This document shows positions 25,389-32,830 of a stretch of 64,000 nt of DNA, one piece after another (position 1 is the stretch's first letter; every line of letters begins with the position of its first letter). This DNA is from Arachnia propionica (GTDB lineage Bacteria > Actinomycetota > Actinomycetes > Propionibacteriales > Propionibacteriaceae), in assembly GCF_037055325.1 (NCBI RefSeq), contig NZ_CP146373.1, positions 1,178,001 to 1,242,000 on the forward strand, written 5' to 3'. Under the pieces are notes generated by a model. That model was not told the DNA's origin, searched no databases, and saw only the letters and a program-made list of their open reading frames with translations. The position numbers and the translations under genes were made by a program.

Positions 25389-25991
25389 GTGACCGAACCC
25401 TCCGCCACCCGCCCCGAGGGGGTCCAACTGCGTGCACGACGCAACCCGCGCCTGATCGCCCTAGGGGTGCTTCTCATCGTGCTGGGCGCCCTGGGAGCGG
25501 CTGCCTTGTACACGACCGCGACTCGCCACCGACAAGCAGTCGCGATGGCGAATGACGTGACCCGCGGCAGGGAAATCCGCCCCTCTGATCTGACCGTGCG
25601 TGAGTTGCCCAGCGACCAGGAGGAAGGAATCGACCCGCAGAAGATGAACGACCTGATCGGAAAACGAGCTCTGTTCGATCTGCCAGCTGGCAGCTTCCCC
25701 ACCGAGCAACGCTTGGGGGATCAGTCCTTTCCCCCGGAAAACGTCACTTTGGGTTTGAAACTCGGTCCCGGAAAAATGCCCAATGCTCCCCTGGTTCCGG
25801 GGCAGAAAATCCAGCTGATCGGTCTCACAGAGAAGACCACGACAACCGCTGTGGTCGCTGCTCTTCCGGAAAAACTGGCCGACGGAGCCACGTGGTTGCT
25901 GGATGTGAGCCTTCCCGCCGAGGAGGCATCCACCGTAGCGGTGCTCGCGTCCGTGGATCAGCTGGTCCTCATCACCCTCCAGGAGTCCTGA
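25389..25991 (+). CDS. SAF domain membrane protein (CpaB/RcpC-like)
   Basis: A 200-residue protein with a short cytoplasmic tail, one membrane helix (about residues 21-42) and an extracytoplasmic SAF domain (about 50-115: VTRGREIRPSDLTVRELP through LIGKRALFDLPAG). In Flp/Tad pilus loci such proteins (CpaB/RcpC) sit outside the membrane, in Gram-negatives together with the secretin; in a Gram-positive the role is unclear. GTG at 25389 is chosen because AAAGGG lies 8 nt before it; ATG at 25338 is possible. It overlaps the next gene by one base (TGATG) and opens the Tad-like operon. Confidence 0.8.
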   Translation: MTEPSATRPEGVQLRARRNPRLIALGVLLIVLGALGAAALYTTATRHRQAVAMANDVTRGREIRPSDLTVRELPSDQEEGIDPQKMNDLIGKRALFDLPAGSFPTEQRLGDQSFPPENVTLGLKLGPGKMPNAPLVPGQKIQLIGLTEKTTTTAVVAALPEKLADGATWLLDVSLPAEEASTVAVLASVDQLVLITLQES

Positions 25992-26794
25992 TGTCAGTGA
26001 TCGTCCTGACCGGCGGCCCAGGTGCCCCCGGCATCACCACGACCTCCCTCGGTCTCACTCTCTGCTGGCCCGGCGACGTGATGCTCTCCGACTGCGACCG
26101 CGACCCGGCGCAGGCCATCCCTGCCGGATACCTCCGCGGCCTCGACCTCGGAGGCAGAGGGCTGGCTGTCCTGGCACGCCTGCATCGCGAAGCCCGGGGA
26201 ATCGGCCCGGAACTGATCAAACAGACCATCGCTTTGACCTGTGAGGAAACCACCAACAGACGTTTCCTTCCCGGTTTCGCCCAGCCGGGGGCGGTGCGGT
26301 TGTTCGATCACATCTGGCCGGAACTCGCGGAGGCCTTCACCACCCTAGGCACTCAAGGCATCGACGTCATCGTCGACGCAGGGAGACTGGGGCACGACGG
26401 ATTGCCCACCGCGCTGCTGGAGGTCGCCGACGCCATCGGGTTCGTGCTGCAGAGCAACCTAAAATCCCTTGCCGCGTCGCGTCTGTACCTTCCCCTGCTG
26501 GTGGAGCAGGTCCATGAACTTCCCACGGATCGCCCACTGGGTCTGCTGCTCGTGGGGCCGGGACGCCCCTATTCAGCCCATGAGATCACTGCGCAGTTCG
26601 GGGTCGACTGCTGGAGTCGGATTCCGTGGGATCCGCGTCCAGCCGGGGTGCTGAGTCACGGGTTGACACCCCCTAAAAGGTTCAATAATTCACCTCTTCT
26701 CGGCTCGTACCGAGTGGCCGCGCTGCGTCTCACACAAAAACTCGAGCACGCCAGGGCTCTCAGACGTGAACTGCTCCAAGGGGGCACCCTGTGA
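25991..26794 (+). CDS. MinD/CpaE-like protein with a degenerate P-loop
   Basis: A 267-residue protein placed where Tad loci carry the MinD-like CpaE/TadZ. The N-terminus VIVLTGGPGAPGITTTSLGL aligns with the deviant Walker A region (normally KGGVGKTT) but lacks both the signature Lys and the GK-T Lys, while keeping the Thr-rich end. A switch-like DCDRDPAQ follows the next strand, and IDVIVDAGRL matches the D-x-A-G region. It is probably a MinD-fold protein that no longer hydrolyses ATP and acts as a scaffold for the CpaF motor. It ends with a GTGA overlap into cpaF. Confidence 0.7.
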   Translation: MSVIVLTGGPGAPGITTTSLGLTLCWPGDVMLSDCDRDPAQAIPAGYLRGLDLGGRGLAVLARLHREARGIGPELIKQTIALTCEETTNRRFLPGFAQPGAVRLFDHIWPELAEAFTTLGTQGIDVIVDAGRLGHDGLPTALLEVADAIGFVLQSNLKSLAASRLYLPLLVEQVHELPTDRPLGLLLVGPGRPYSAHEITAQFGVDCWSRIPWDPRPAGVLSHGLTPPKRFNNSPLLGSYRVAALRLTQKLEHARALRRELLQGGTL

Positions 26795-28221
26795 CCAGCG
26801 ACGCATCGAAACCACCCGCCCTGTCCGGGGCATTCGCCGCCCTCGCAACCTCCGATTGGCACCCCCAGGCCGCGGCACCCCGTCACCAGTTCCTGGAGGA
26901 GGAAGACCAGCCGAATCACGACGTCGACTGGCAGCTCGTGGTGTCGCTTCGCAGACAGGCCGCCGAGCAGATCGGTCAGGCCAGTGAACGCTGGTTGGCC
27001 GAGCACGGCACGGTGATGCCCGAGGATGATAGGAAGGCCCAGGGCAGGGCAATCATCCGCGCCGTCGTCCACGCCCACGCTGAAAAGCTCAGCGATGAGG
27101 GAGCGGCATTGTGGTCCAGGGAACTGGAGACCAGTTATGCCGATGCCGTGGCGCAGGCCATCTTCGGGTACGGACGCCTGAGCCCGGTTCTGAGCATCCC
27201 GGAGGCCGAGAACATCGAGATCACAGGCTGGGACTCGGTGATGATCCAGTACGGCGACGGGCACCGAGAGCCCCATCCGCCCGTGGCGGACTCCGACGAA
27301 GAATTGATCGAGGCCATCCGGTTTCTCGGCGAAACCGCAAATCCACCACGCCCCTTCGATGACGCCCACCCGACGATGACCCTCGCACTCGGTAGCCGTT
27401 TCCGCCTGCACGCCATCGGGTTTGGGTTGAGCCACCGGCCCTCCGTGATCATCCGCCAGCACACACTGACTTCAGTGACGTTGAAGGAGCTGGCCGACGG
27501 CGGCATGCTACCTCTGCCCGTGGCTCGCCTCCTCGCCCAGGCCGTGCTGGGCCGCAAGTCGATCGTGATCTCCGGTGACCAGGGGGCGGGGAAGACCACC
27601 CTGCTGCGCGCCTTGATCGCGGAAATCCCACCGAACGAACGGTTCGGAACCCTGGAGACCGATTACGAGCTGTTAACCCATCTGCAACCCGGGCGACGTA
27701 ACATGCTGGCGCTCCAGGCGAAAGTGGGTCTCGGGGAACAACAGGGTGACCGACACGTCGGGGAATGGAGTGTGGCCGATCTCATTCCCGAGGCCCTGCG
27801 GCAGAACCTGTCCCGGTTGGTCGTCGGAGAGGTCCGTGGAGCCGAGGCCGGCGCCATGTTCGAGGCGATGCAGGCCGGCGCCGGCACCCTGTCAACCACC
27901 CATTCACATTCCGCCACCTCCACCATCGACCGCTTGGCGGCTCGTGTCGCGCTGGGCGGGGTCCTCAGCATCGGGGAAGCGATGCGGCAGATCGCCCACA
28001 ACATCAACTTCATCGTCCACGTGACCCTGCGCGACGACACCTGGCGCGGCGGTCTCAGACGACGTTTTGTCAGTGAAGTACGGCAGCTGACCAGGGTCAT
28101 CGAGAACGAACGCCCGACCACCCACCTCGTCTATCGTTCCGACCCGACCCCCCTGTTCCAACCGGAAGCGATGATGTCGGCCGAACTCTCGGCGTTTCGG
28201 GAGGCGTCATGGGAGCGTTGA
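26791..28221 (+). CDS. cpaF: CpaF/TadA family secretion ATPase
   Basis: A 476-residue type II/IV secretion ATPase of the CpaF/TadA class. The N-terminal helical domain is followed by the ATPase core: Walker A GDQGAGKTT (about 261-269), Asp box LETDYELLTHL, Walker B-like SRLVVGEVRGAEAG (about 340) and His box with TLSTTHSHSA (about 370). All residues needed for ATP hydrolysis are visible. It would power assembly or extrusion through the TadB/TadC platform encoded next. It starts GTG, overlapping the previous stop by 4 bp, and overlaps tadB by 13 bp. Confidence 0.93.
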   Translation: MTSDASKPPALSGAFAALATSDWHPQAAAPRHQFLEEEDQPNHDVDWQLVVSLRRQAAEQIGQASERWLAEHGTVMPEDDRKAQGRAIIRAVVHAHAEKLSDEGAALWSRELETSYADAVAQAIFGYGRLSPVLSIPEAENIEITGWDSVMIQYGDGHREPHPPVADSDEELIEAIRFLGETANPPRPFDDAHPTMTLALGSRFRLHAIGFGLSHRPSVIIRQHTLTSVTLKELADGGMLPLPVARLLAQAVLGRKSIVISGDQGAGKTTLLRALIAEIPPNERFGTLETDYELLTHLQPGRRNMLALQAKVGLGEQQGDRHVGEWSVADLIPEALRQNLSRLVVGEVRGAEAGAMFEAMQAGAGTLSTTHSHSATSTIDRLAARVALGGVLSIGEAMRQIAHNINFIVHVTLRDDTWRGGLRRRFVSEVRQLTRVIENERPTTHLVYRSDPTPLFQPEAMMSAELSAFREASWER

Positions 28222-29066
28222 TCGCCGCAGGAAGCGGCGCGCTGCTGGTCGCAGGGGTGATTCTCGTAGTGACGGGAGTACAACATCAGGCTCCGGTCGC
28301 GCCGTCATCCACACCACTGTCGACACGGTTGATGGCTCGTTGGAAAGCGTTGAAAGCACGACGTCGCATCTGGGTCGTTTCCTGTCTGATCGCTGGTGTC
28401 GTAATCGGGACCTGGACCGGATGGTTGGCCGCCGTGATCCTGATTCCGGTAGCGCTGTTGGGTTTACCCCACCTGCTGAGCGAACCGCCGAATCCGGAAG
28501 TGGAGATCCTCGCCGCCCTGGACCGTTGGCTGCGTTTCCTCGGACCCTCGATAGCCACGGGGAAATCAATTCGAGATGCGATTATCGCAACCCGCTCCCA
28601 GGTTCCTCCGGTACTGACGACCCCGGTGGCCCGGGTTGTCGCACGACTCGACCTGGGGTGGACCACCCGGAACGCACTGATCGCGATGGCGGACGAGCTC
28701 AATTCCGCTGACGCCGATGGGATACTGGCTGCCTTGGCGATCGCCTCTTCACGAGGCGGGGTCGGTGCTCGCCCCATGCTCTCCGCGCTGGCCGAGAACA
28801 CCCAGATGCGATTGCGCGCCATGCGCGAAATCGCCGCGGAACGAGCCAAACCCCGGGCCGTGGTGCGCCAAGTCGTTGGCATCACACTCGCGATCCTGGT
28901 CGTGGTCTGGTTACTGTCGCCCGGATATTTCGGTCCCTATGGAACGCCAACCGGGCAGCTGCTGGCGTTGACATTGACCGCTTTCTACGTGGGGGCATTG
29001 CTGATACTGCGCCGCAGGACCCTTCCGAAACCGGCTGCCCGTTTCCTCAGAGGGGAACCGAGATGA
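28209..29066 (+). CDS. tadB: TadB-like type II secretion F platform protein
   Basis: A 285-residue inner-membrane platform protein of the T2SSF family. Hydrophobic segments at about 3-22 and 55-90, then a cytoplasmic helical domain (SIRDAIIATRS, AALAIASSRGGVGARPML) and two C-terminal membrane segments (about 222-275). This is the usual TadB layout and pairs with TadC. It overlaps both cpaF (13 bp) and tadC (ATGA). Confidence 0.88.
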   Translation: MGALIAAGSGALLVAGVILVVTGVQHQAPVAPSSTPLSTRLMARWKALKARRRIWVVSCLIAGVVIGTWTGWLAAVILIPVALLGLPHLLSEPPNPEVEILAALDRWLRFLGPSIATGKSIRDAIIATRSQVPPVLTTPVARVVARLDLGWTTRNALIAMADELNSADADGILAALAIASSRGGVGARPMLSALAENTQMRLRAMREIAAERAKPRAVVRQVVGITLAILVVVWLLSPGYFGPYGTPTGQLLALTLTAFYVGALLILRRRTLPKPAARFLRGEPR

Positions 29067-29947
29067 ACATCCTGGGTCCCTTCATGGTGGCAGGAATGGT
29101 AGTCGGCGCCGGTGCTCTGCTGATCATCATGGGCACCCTGCGATCCCCCATACGTCTCACGGATGCCTTCGCAGCCCTGGAAGGTTCCGTTCCCGAAACG
29201 CAGGAGACACGCTCGGAACACAGAGGCCTGGAAGCGCTCGGAGATTGGTTACACGCTACCCACAAGCTACCGCTCACCCACAACCAGCAGCGTCTCCTTC
29301 TGTTGTCAGGACGAAGCGTCGCCGATTTCTTCGCTGAAAAACTGGTGCTGGCCACAACGGGGTTGCTTCTACCTGCAATCTGGTTCGTCATACAGACGGT
29401 CCTCGGAAACCCGACGACGCCTGTCCCCCTGCTCCTGGGTCCTGTCCTCGGAATCGGCGGATATTTCCTGGCAGATCTGAGATTGGCGAGAACATCCCGC
29501 CGGGTGAGCAGAAGCACTTCGGAGGCGGTTCACACCTTCTTCGATCTCGTCGCCCTTGAACGTCTGGCGAATGCCTCTGCAACCCAGGCCGTCACCCAAG
29601 CGGCCACCATTTCCGGCGCACCACTATTCCGTCGCATGACGACCGGTCTGGAGCGGTGTCGGCTGGAACAAACCACGCCGTGGCGGGAACTGCACCGGAT
29701 CGCCGAAGAGTGGGACATGCCGGAATTGAGCGATTTCGCCGACATCATGCGCCTCGAGGAGCAAGGAGCAGCACTCGCTGAAACCTTGCAGGCCAGGGTC
29801 CGGGAGCTCCGGGAAGGGCATCTGGCGCAGCAACGCTCCCGTGCCCAGGAGGACACCGAGTCCCTCACCATCTGGATGACCCTGCCAGCTCTGTTCCTCG
29901 GCCTGGGCTTCATCATCCCACCGCTGTTCACCCTCATCGGTTTGTGA
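29063..29947 (+). CDS. tadC: TadC-like type II secretion F platform protein
   Basis: A 294-residue partner of TadB. One N-terminal helix (LGPFMVAGMVVGAGALLIIMG), a central pair of helices near residues 94-135, the cytoplasmic T2SSF helical bundle (HTFFDLVALERLANASATQAV, DFADIMRLEEQGAALAETL) and a C-terminal helix (MTLPALFLGLGFIIPPLF). Start overlaps tadB by ATGA. Followed after 85 nt by the small pilin-like gene. Confidence 0.88.
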   Translation: MNILGPFMVAGMVVGAGALLIIMGTLRSPIRLTDAFAALEGSVPETQETRSEHRGLEALGDWLHATHKLPLTHNQQRLLLLSGRSVADFFAEKLVLATTGLLLPAIWFVIQTVLGNPTTPVPLLLGPVLGIGGYFLADLRLARTSRRVSRSTSEAVHTFFDLVALERLANASATQAVTQAATISGAPLFRRMTTGLERCRLEQTTPWRELHRIAEEWDMPELSDFADIMRLEEQGAALAETLQARVRELREGHLAQQRSRAQEDTESLTIWMTLPALFLGLGFIIPPLFTLIGL

Positions 29948-30032
29948 GAACCGGCATGAAAAAGATCTGTGGAAAACGGAGACCACACCAGTCGACCACC
30001 CAAAGTGAAAACCAGATAGGGAAGAAGGAACC

Positions 30033-30212
30033 ATGTCCCCCTTGTTGAATCTCCTCCAGCAGTACCTGACCCTGCTCATCCCGCCCCGCCGCGACGAGCG
30101 CGGATTATCGCAGTCGACGGAAAACGCCATTCTCCTGGCAGGAGCCGTGACCATCGCTCTACTCGTGGTCAGCGTCATCACGAAATTCGTGGAGGCAAAA
30201 CTTCCCAAGTGA
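30033..30212 (+). CDS. Flp/Tad pilin-like small membrane peptide
   Basis: A 59-residue peptide with an excellent ribosome-binding site (GGGAAGAAGGA, ending 2 nt before ATG). It has an amphipathic N-terminus, a charged PPRRDERG segment, then LSQSTENAILLAGAV running into a membrane helix and a short basic tail ending KLPK. The Gly followed by a small/hydrophobic residue and a Glu six positions later resembles a class III signal peptide and pilin N-terminus, where Glu is normally at +5. In this position, after TadC, actinomycete Tad loci usually carry the pilin. The stop overlaps the next gene as GTGA. No TadE/TadF gene follows. Confidence 0.7.
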   Translation: MSPLLNLLQQYLTLLIPPRRDERGLSQSTENAILLAGAVTIALLVVSVITKFVEAKLPK

Positions 30213-32830
30213 ACCGACGAATGGAACCGCCCGGAAGGAATCCCAGCGTGAGACGAGTTGCGAAAGCCACCGGCGCCGCTGTTCTGCTCGCCGTCCTGCT
30301 GTTGGGCGTGCCCTGGGCACTGCTCTGCTGGGGCCGGCTGGCTGACCTGGCGACGGTCGACTGGGGAAACGCCCTACTACGTCCCGACGACGGTCGCATC
30401 ATCCTAGGAGTGCTGTCGTTGCTTGGCTGGCTGGCCTGGGGATTACTCGCCCTGACCACCATCGGCGAGCTGCTGCACGCTACTTCACGAGGTCGGATCA
30501 GATTCCACGTACCCGGCGCGGGCTGGCTCCGTCCCGTCGTCGCTTTGCTGGTGGCTGCCGCGCTGTCACCACTGCTGGCGGCGAATGCTTCCTCACCCCT
30601 GCTCGATACTCCCGCAGCAGTTGCAGCACTGACAGAGGTCACTCCCACCGACCCCACCGATACGGCGTCCCACACCACTCGGCAGGAACCCATCACATGG
30701 CGGGAGTACAAGGTGCAGCCAGGTGACGAGCTGTGGGATATCGCCGAACACGAACTCGGTGCAGGGGAAAGATGGCGCCAGCTGATTGCCGCAAACCCGG
30801 GGATCGACGTGGATCATCCCCCTCCTCCGGGAACGATCCTGCGGCTGCCCATGACGGTGACCGTGGAGTCAGGAGATTCCCTCTGGCACCTGGCTGAGCA
30901 GCACCTCGGGGATCCCGAGCGCTGGCCCGAGCTCCACGATGCCAACCGGGACCGTATCACCGACCCCGACGAGATCGACACCGGTTGGGTGCTCACCCTG
31001 CCCGGGGCGGACGTTGCCGCCCTGGGCACACCGTCACATCCCGCCCCGCCCACCGCCAGCGAGCCAGTCCCCACACCCACTCCCTCACCGGAAACGACTC
31101 CCACGCCCTCACCCCTCCCATCCCCGACTGAAAGCCCTGGCCCAGCATCCGAGACCTCTTCCGTGGAGGAACACCCCGACCTGTCGGGTTACCTCGGCCC
31201 GATCGGGGGTCTCCTGGCGGCGGGGGTCATCACAGGCCTTTCGCTGCGCCGTCGAAGCGCCCTACAAACCCGTCCCCTCGGACGCCGCTCCATATCCGTC
31301 CCATCCCCTCTGGAACATTTCTGGACGGCCCTGGGACGCCGAGGAACACAACCCCGACCCAATGACCCCGTCAACCCCTCCCCCACCTCCGTGCTGTTGG
31401 GCTGGCGCGGAGAGGAGGAAGTCTGGATCACTCTGGAGGAGAGTCGTTGCCTCTGGCTCTCCGGTCCCCACCCAGAGGTCCTAGGCATGACCGCCAGCAC
31501 CTGGACAAGTCTGCTGTGCGCGCAGTGGTCATCCGAGGTCGATGTGGTTGCAGCCAACCCCCGGGAAGCCTGGGCCGAAGCCATCGACGATCCTCGCCTC
31601 GTGGTCATGCCATCCACCGACGACGCCCTGACACACCTGGAACAACTCTGCGCTGGTCGCCGCGTGGCGCTCGGTTCGGCTTCGCTCACAGCAGTGCGTT
31701 CGGATCCGGACCGGACCACCGGATTCGCCCCCACGGTATTCATCCTCTGCGATCCACTGACCCACCAGCAGGTGATCCGCGTCGCCCAGGCACTCGAACT
31801 CGGCCAGGTCGGGGTCAGCGTGATAGCCCCAACTCGGCAACGCCCCTCCGCTCCAGGAAACCATCTGGAGTTGCAGGATGCTCGGACCGCGAGGCTGGAC
31901 TCCGGAGAGGAGTTCGAGCCCCAGCTCATCCCGGGACCTGCCCGTCACGCGTTGGTCGAGTTGTTCACGTCCTCGATCGCACCGGAGTCGGAGCCTGCCC
32001 CCTGGTGGTGCGATGACCCTCTTCCCCCCAAAGAAACCCCGCTGCCCGGCAGCGGCCCCGTCAAGGAACCACCCATGGCCGCCGAACCTCACTCACCGAC
32101 GCTGCTTCTCCTGGGGGAGGTGGACCTGGTGGCCTGCGACGGCTCGCGACCGGCCCGGGCCACCGGGCGCTGCCTCGAATGCTGCGCCTGGCTGCTGTCC
32201 AATCCGGGAGCAACCCCCACCCAGATGCGGGAATCACTGATGGTCGCCGAGAGCACCAGGCGCTCGAACATGTCCAGGCTGCGTGGCTGGTTGGGAAAGG
32301 GACCGGAGGGAGAACACCTGCCCGATGCCTATTCCGGACGCATCCGGCTCGCTGCCTCCGTTTCGAGTGACTGGGAGAGATTCCAGTCACTGCTCGCAGG
32401 CGGGGTCAACCGGGCCGGCGAAACATCACTGGCCGAGGCACTCGCGCTGGTCCGAGGAACACCACTAGGAAGTTTCGAATTCCAGTGGAGCTGGGCAGAA
32501 CAACTGCGCAGCGACATGGTGAACATGATCATTGACGCCGCGGCGGTGCTGGCGGATCGTTGCACGGCCCGCGGGGAACATGCACTAGCCGACTGGGCCA
32601 TCTCCCAAGGAATCCGCGCCGCAGGGGACGTGGAGCCCTTGGTCGTACGGCGGATTCGCTCGCTCGCCCAGCGCGGCGACCGGGCTGGAGTGGACCAGCA
32701 GGTGCTGCTGCTCACACGTGAGGCGCGCGCCTCAGGACGAGACCTCGGGCCAGATTCGGTACGCATGATCCAAGAGGCCCTCCACACTTGCCGCCGAGGG
32801 ACCCACCGCGAACGATCCGACGCCGGGTAA
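30209..32830 (+). CDS. Membrane protein with two LysM domains and a C-terminal BTAD-like domain
   Basis: An 873-residue multidomain protein. It has N-terminal membrane helices (about 18-37, 65-92 and 110-130) and two LysM peptidoglycan-binding repeats (about 165-213, YKVQPGDELWDIAEHEL; and 215-265, VTVESGDSLWHLAEQHL). A Pro/Thr/Ser linker follows, then one further helix (about 328-348), a large cytoplasmic region, and finally a winged-helix plus BTAD region (from about 630; LLGEVDLVACDGS, NMSRLRGWLG, ALALVRGTPLGSFEFQWSWAEQLR). BTAD domains occur in SARP-type activators. A protein that touches the cell wall and carries a DNA-binding-like domain could sense envelope state; here it closes the Tad-like operon (GTGA overlap with the pilin-like gene). 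The function is inferred only. Confidence 0.85.
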   Translation: MNRRMEPPGRNPSVRRVAKATGAAVLLAVLLLGVPWALLCWGRLADLATVDWGNALLRPDDGRIILGVLSLLGWLAWGLLALTTIGELLHATSRGRIRFHVPGAGWLRPVVALLVAAALSPLLAANASSPLLDTPAAVAALTEVTPTDPTDTASHTTRQEPITWREYKVQPGDELWDIAEHELGAGERWRQLIAANPGIDVDHPPPPGTILRLPMTVTVESGDSLWHLAEQHLGDPERWPELHDANRDRITDPDEIDTGWVLTLPGADVAALGTPSHPAPPTASEPVPTPTPSPETTPTPSPLPSPTESPGPASETSSVEEHPDLSGYLGPIGGLLAAGVITGLSLRRRSALQTRPLGRRSISVPSPLEHFWTALGRRGTQPRPNDPVNPSPTSVLLGWRGEEEVWITLEESRCLWLSGPHPEVLGMTASTWTSLLCAQWSSEVDVVAANPREAWAEAIDDPRLVVMPSTDDALTHLEQLCAGRRVALGSASLTAVRSDPDRTTGFAPTVFILCDPLTHQQVIRVAQALELGQVGVSVIAPTRQRPSAPGNHLELQDARTARLDSGEEFEPQLIPGPARHALVELFTSSIAPESEPAPWWCDDPLPPKETPLPGSGPVKEPPMAAEPHSPTLLLLGEVDLVACDGSRPARATGRCLECCAWLLSNPGATPTQMRESLMVAESTRRSNMSRLRGWLGKGPEGEHLPDAYSGRIRLAASVSSDWERFQSLLAGGVNRAGETSLAEALALVRGTPLGSFEFQWSWAEQLRSDMVNMIIDAAAVLADRCTARGEHALADWAISQGIRAAGDVEPLVVRRIRSLAQRGDRAGVDQQVLLLTREARASGRDLGPDSVRMIQEALHTCRRGTHRERSDAG

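Follow-up and report, generated by a model that had tools for sequence, protein, structure and literature searches.

The seven-gene locus at positions 25389-32830 of the analysed window (a 64,000-nucleotide stretch of Arachnia propionica DNA) probably encodes the core of a dispersed actinobacterial Tad (Flp) pilus machine, in which the TadE/TadF minor pilins and the prepilin peptidase are unlinked to the operon. The window corresponds to G000:C1:1178001-1242000 of a single-contig genome of 3.31 Mb, and the locus consists of seven co-directional, tightly packed open reading frames on the plus strand, encoding a SAF-domain protein, a MinD-like protein, CpaF, TadB, TadC, a 59-residue pilin and an 873-residue LysM protein. 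All seven are present where an earlier note had placed them, and that note was also right that no TadE, TadF or peptidase gene adjoins them: a genome-wide search found none within the window and located all three elsewhere. A TadE and TadF pair (TadE above cut-off) lies at 458,319-459,129 of the genome, 0.75 Mb from the operon, and no other TadE-like gene was detected genome-wide at an E threshold of 0.001. A type IV prepilin peptidase (Peptidase_A24, above cut-off) lies at 2,100,579-2,101,160, 0.9 Mb from the operon. The suggestion of a reduced, minimal envelope machine made from the operon itself is thus not supported, the parts that seemed to be lacking being encoded at other sites of the same genome.

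The core Tad proteins were assigned gene by gene. The first gene (25389-25991, with a GTG start at 25389 read in the sequence) encodes a CpaB/RcpC-like SAF-domain protein with one N-terminal transmembrane helix, which scores 24.2 bits with Pfam SAF (cut-off 21) and matches the CpaB model at E 8e-4, below the curated cut-off of that model. The next (25991-26794) occupies the TadZ/CpaE position and encodes a MinD/ParA-like protein, recognised from its conserved position, from its P-loop alignment and from a family profile that matches ParA/Soj (1wcv) at E 8e-5; its P-loop reads SPGVTT and has lost the lysine, so that the earlier description of a degenerate MinD-like protein was accurate. The motor ATPase CpaF/TadA (26791-28221) has an intact Walker A motif (GDQGAGKTT) and passes the Pfam T2SSE cut-off with 69.6 bits, while its match to the TadA-family model (E 3e-42) falls below the curated cut-off of that model. 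The platform proteins are TadB (28209-29066; Pfam T2SSF 30.6 bits, above cut-off) and TadC (29063-29947), the latter identified by its conserved position and neighbours and by its transmembrane pattern. The small gene at 30033-30212 encodes a 59-residue Flp-like prepilin with a near-invariant ERG/LSQSTENAILLAGAV motif, and overlaps the LysM gene (30209-32830), the conserved final gene of the locus, by 4 nt. Searched singly against Pfam and NCBIfam, the TadC, pilin and MinD-like proteins of the window gave no match.

The arrangement is conserved well beyond the genome under study. Among 245 genomes of the order searched (counts taken by hand from the table), a CpaF of the window's type (hereafter W-type, at least 60% identity) was found in 85 of the 100 that belong to the window's family, and no listed genome from another family has one; the next matches drop to 46% and ~40%. 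Within the genus, CpaF is ~70-93% identical, and TadC is 35-87% identical across W-type loci. The order SAF, MinD-like, CpaF, TadB, TadC, pilin, LysM gene recurs in more than 50 Propionibacteriaceae loci, and because it is kept in so many relatives the operon is not a chance arrangement; the exceptions are cuts at contig ends, interrupted cpaF genes and some loci of 40-45% identity in genera g15 and g25. By its LysM protein, the closest named relative among the matches listed is [Pseudopropionibacterium] massiliense (82% identity), followed by two Tessaracoccus species. The pairing of the LysM protein with CpaF, TadB and TadC, which the earlier note had proposed to look for, proved stable across these loci. 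Since some related Tad loci of g15 and g25 (L046, L048, L050, L053 and L065) have no LysM gene after TadC or TadE/F, the protein is not universally required. ComEC, considered as a possible sign of DNA uptake, is present in all 30 genomes tested, with or without W-type CpaF, and is therefore not discriminating.

The position of the minor pilin genes differs between the genus and its relatives. Scanning the gap between the pilin and LysM genes with TadE and TadF profiles revealed both genes there in almost every W-type locus of the other genera, and neither in the loci of the window's genus (L004, L005 and L066-L071) nor in L099 (genome G133). The ordinary arrangement with adjacent TadE/F therefore exists in relatives from other genera, which speaks against the minimal machine that the earlier note had proposed. 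In L096 (genome G116), pilin, TadE and TadF lie upstream of SAF. In L099, TadE/TadF are not adjacent to the locus, and TadE matches occur elsewhere in G133. Unlinked TadF is kept in 33 of the 34 genomes of the genus, and the exception (G059) also has no W-type CpaF. All but five (G059, G074, G192, G229 and G233) of the 108 family genomes contain TadE (PF07811), and these five belong to a group of six whose sole CpaF relatives are of a distant, canonical type (E 1e-23 to 1e-28); the sixth (G207) retains one TadE. TadE being missing only among genomes that have canonical-type CpaF alone, it tracks the SAF-type Tad loci and not the canonical ones.

How the unlinked pairs arose can be read in two ways. 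The unlinked pair shares the start GLSxSVQ with locus-linked TadE of other genera. In a quick TadE/F tree (140 columns; key branches at 82, unstarred), the unlinked pairs of the genus form clades of their own, apart from the W-linked TadE/F, and group with the TadE/F genes of the genus's second Tad loci (L059 and L062); this separation from the linked genes means that they may have replaced the original pair instead of being that pair moved elsewhere. Judged from these sequences, relocation and replacement would both be compatible with the data.

The same observations bear on two other readings of the locus. It could be a truly minimal Tad machine able to function with no TadE/F, or one whose product is not a pilus but, for instance, a secretion device or a short pseudopilus that spans the wall; an operon free of TadE/F throughout the genus and in L099 would fit, but an unlinked pair is present in 33 of the 34 genomes of the genus, the one exception lacking W-type CpaF as well, and G133 carries TadE matches away from L099, which makes this quite improbable. 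Alternatively, the unlinked TadE/F might serve another Tad system and the window locus be a decaying remnant, as the clustering of the genus pairs with the second loci L059/L062 and the interruption of cpaF in several relatives could suggest. We consider this very improbable, given that the seven window reading frames are all intact and conserved, that CpaF is so similar across the genus, and that TadE is missing only where canonical-type TadA is all that remains. The core of a dispersed pilus machine is thus the reading that we favour, with some points against it: the prepilin (G/LSQSTEN, its ERG/LSQSTEN start near-invariant in most W-type loci) carries its glutamate at +6, and not at +5 followed by tyrosine as in G/XXXXEY; no pilus has been seen in Arachnia propionica; the unlinked TadE/F pairs of the genus branch apart from the locus-linked ones of other genera; the LysM protein is missing from some related Tad loci; and the peptidase could also be used by a second, canonical CpaE-TadA-TadB-TadC set (G000:C1:1597436-1601128, outside the window) and by DUF4244 pilins, encoded from 1,587,876 onward on the other strand, ~9 kb from that set.

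The cpaF gene itself appears to be a target for integration. In at least six relatives (G056, G104, G107, G156, G135 and T. coleopterorum; loci L102-L104, L142, L143/L144 and L006) the reading frame is broken near codon 360-370, with the second half 15-50 kb away in four of the six and on another contig in G135. Large serine integrases lie at the cpaF junction in L102, L104, L142 and L006, of which the L102 and L104 enzymes match integrases of phages. Three elements also encode phage proteins, namely head, capsid and tail proteins in G056 (L145), tail proteins in G156 (L104) and, in G104 (L103), an endolysin. Several of the large-serine-integrase elements that interrupt cpaF are prophages, and this gene for the Tad motor seems to serve as an attachment site for them; a literature search on prophage insertion in tadA gave nothing specific. 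In L105 (G152), cpaF is broken near Walker A by ~2.2 kb carrying another serine recombinase.

The final protein of the locus combines several kinds of domain. Predicted N-terminal transmembrane helices precede two LysM repeats (residues 167-266, 30707-31006; Pfam LysM E 1.6e-12, two stretches) that are predicted to lie outside the membrane, and another, weaker hydrophobic segment ending in RRR was read at residues 328-346. From the positive charges that flank the inner sides, the LysM repeats would face the wall and the remainder would be cytosolic. The cytosolic half was modelled from a 3-sequence alignment (pLDDT 58.5). In this model, residues 385-582 (31361-31954) adopt an FtsK/EccC fold (Foldseek E 9e-6 to FtsK/EccC; VIA-align Z 15.5 to FtsK and 15.3 to EccCb1-D2). 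The likeness to these ATPases is one of fold, whereas a Walker A GK[ST] at the P-loop is absent in all 27 homologues checked, so that the domain is probably not an ATPase.

Residues 628-860 (32090-32788) are read as a divergent winged-helix and BTAD/TPR-like tail, as judged from the model and from an aligned Streptomyces plasmid homologue. The label LysM/BTAD given earlier holds firmly for its LysM half (two domains), and more weakly for BTAD: the window protein has no match to Pfam BTAD, whose cut-off is passed only by the Streptomyces homologue (23.0 vs 22.1 bits), which aligns with the LysM-protein family over nearly its whole length (hhalign 100%). A BTAD search of the whole genome matched one protein, which is not the LysM protein of the window. 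The C-terminal half of the tail is modelled as helical and TPR-like (pLDDT 70-89), while the winged-helix part has pLDDT <50; winged-helix/HTH domains are weakly matched in homologues, and the segment VAExTRRSNMSRLRxWLG is strongly conserved within the W clade.

These features suggest several roles. There is about an even chance that the LysM protein anchors the machine in the wall. As proposed earlier, it might form the wall-crossing part or couple wall contact to gene expression. The protein might instead be a membrane-tethered transcription regulator, the outer LysM repeats sensing the state of the wall or pilus and the winged-helix/BTAD-like tail binding DNA to control the locus. The winged-helix/HTH and BTAD traces in homologues, the strongly conserved segment and the presence of EmbR and AfsR among the Foldseek matches of the tail are consistent with regulation, but those Foldseek matches are all weak (E > 0.06), the winged-helix part is modelled at low confidence, Pfam BTAD gives no match in the window protein and the FtsK/EccC-like domain stands between membrane and tail; altogether, we regard this as rather unlikely. 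A more elaborate version, in which a single chain links wall to gene (LysM sensing the wall or the growing pilus, the dead FtsK/EccC domain docking on the pilus motor, and the winged-helix/BTAD-like tail switching transcription), appears distinctly unlikely.

Comparison with known systems supports the dispersed pilus reading. The locus type is already known, both across Propionibacteriaceae and on published Cutibacterium acnes plasmids. The tad locus of plasmid pIMPLE-HL096PA1 (L136; PAGK_2360-2370) has the same order (SAF, TadZ-like, CpaF/TadA, TadB, TadC, a small protein at the pilin position and a gene annotated 'LysM, BTAD') (PMC3666418). It differs in being plasmid-borne and in carrying TadE and two more TadE/TadG-like genes between its pilin and LysM genes, and its LysM protein is ~30% identical to that of the window. 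In tad-positive C. acnes strains, appendages have been observed by electron microscopy (PMC5696575). The same gene set is found on a Streptomyces plasmid (L137). The Flp pili of Micrococcus luteus depend on two loci that lie 1.2 Mb from each other, and on a separate, unlinked tadV gene (PMC4322843); this competence pilus (tad-1/tad-2) resembles the system proposed here in being an actinobacterial Flp pilus built from distant loci with an unlinked prepilin peptidase. The two differ in that each M. luteus locus contains TadE/F-like genes, and LysM is not mentioned in the text of that paper. The published LysM, BTAD locus of C. acnes and the distant loci of M. luteus thus lead us to conclude that the window carries a dispersed actinobacterial Tad locus and not a new machine. 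The second set in the genome (1.597-1.601 Mb; CpaE-like, TadA, TadB and TadC) is of the canonical actinobacterial TadA kind exemplified by Rv3660c-Rv3654c; it differs from the window locus in having no SAF or LysM gene and in the distance of its DUF4244 pilins.

A working scheme can be proposed from these parts. The unlinked peptidase would cleave the prepilin as well as TadE and TadF, and a hexameric CpaF motor with the TadB-TadC platform would pull the pilin out of the membrane to extend (and perhaps retract) the pilus. The MinD/ParA-like protein may position the machine, and the SAF protein may form a ring or conduit above the membrane; RcpC acts as a conduit in P. aeruginosa (PMC12307814). 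For the LysM protein, we infer a topology in which the LysM repeats would bind peptidoglycan and hold the machine in the wall, while the FtsK/EccC-fold pseudo-ATPase and the TPR-like tail would dock on the cytosolic side.

These findings dispose of the proposed minimal envelope machine and indicate that pilus loci can be misread when their minor pilins and peptidase are unlinked. They add two pieces of new knowledge: the Tad motor gene appears to be hit recurrently by temperate-phage integration, and in the LysM protein an FtsK/EccC-like fold devoid of Walker A precedes a divergent tail of helix-turn-helix/BTAD-like character. The LysM/pseudo-FtsK/BTAD-like protein emerges as a conserved, uncharacterised component of a Tad type that is widespread in Actinobacteria, and wall anchor and tethered regulator compete as its possible roles. 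Should the single-chain sensor prove true, the assembly state of the pilus would directly control gene expression across Actinobacteria.
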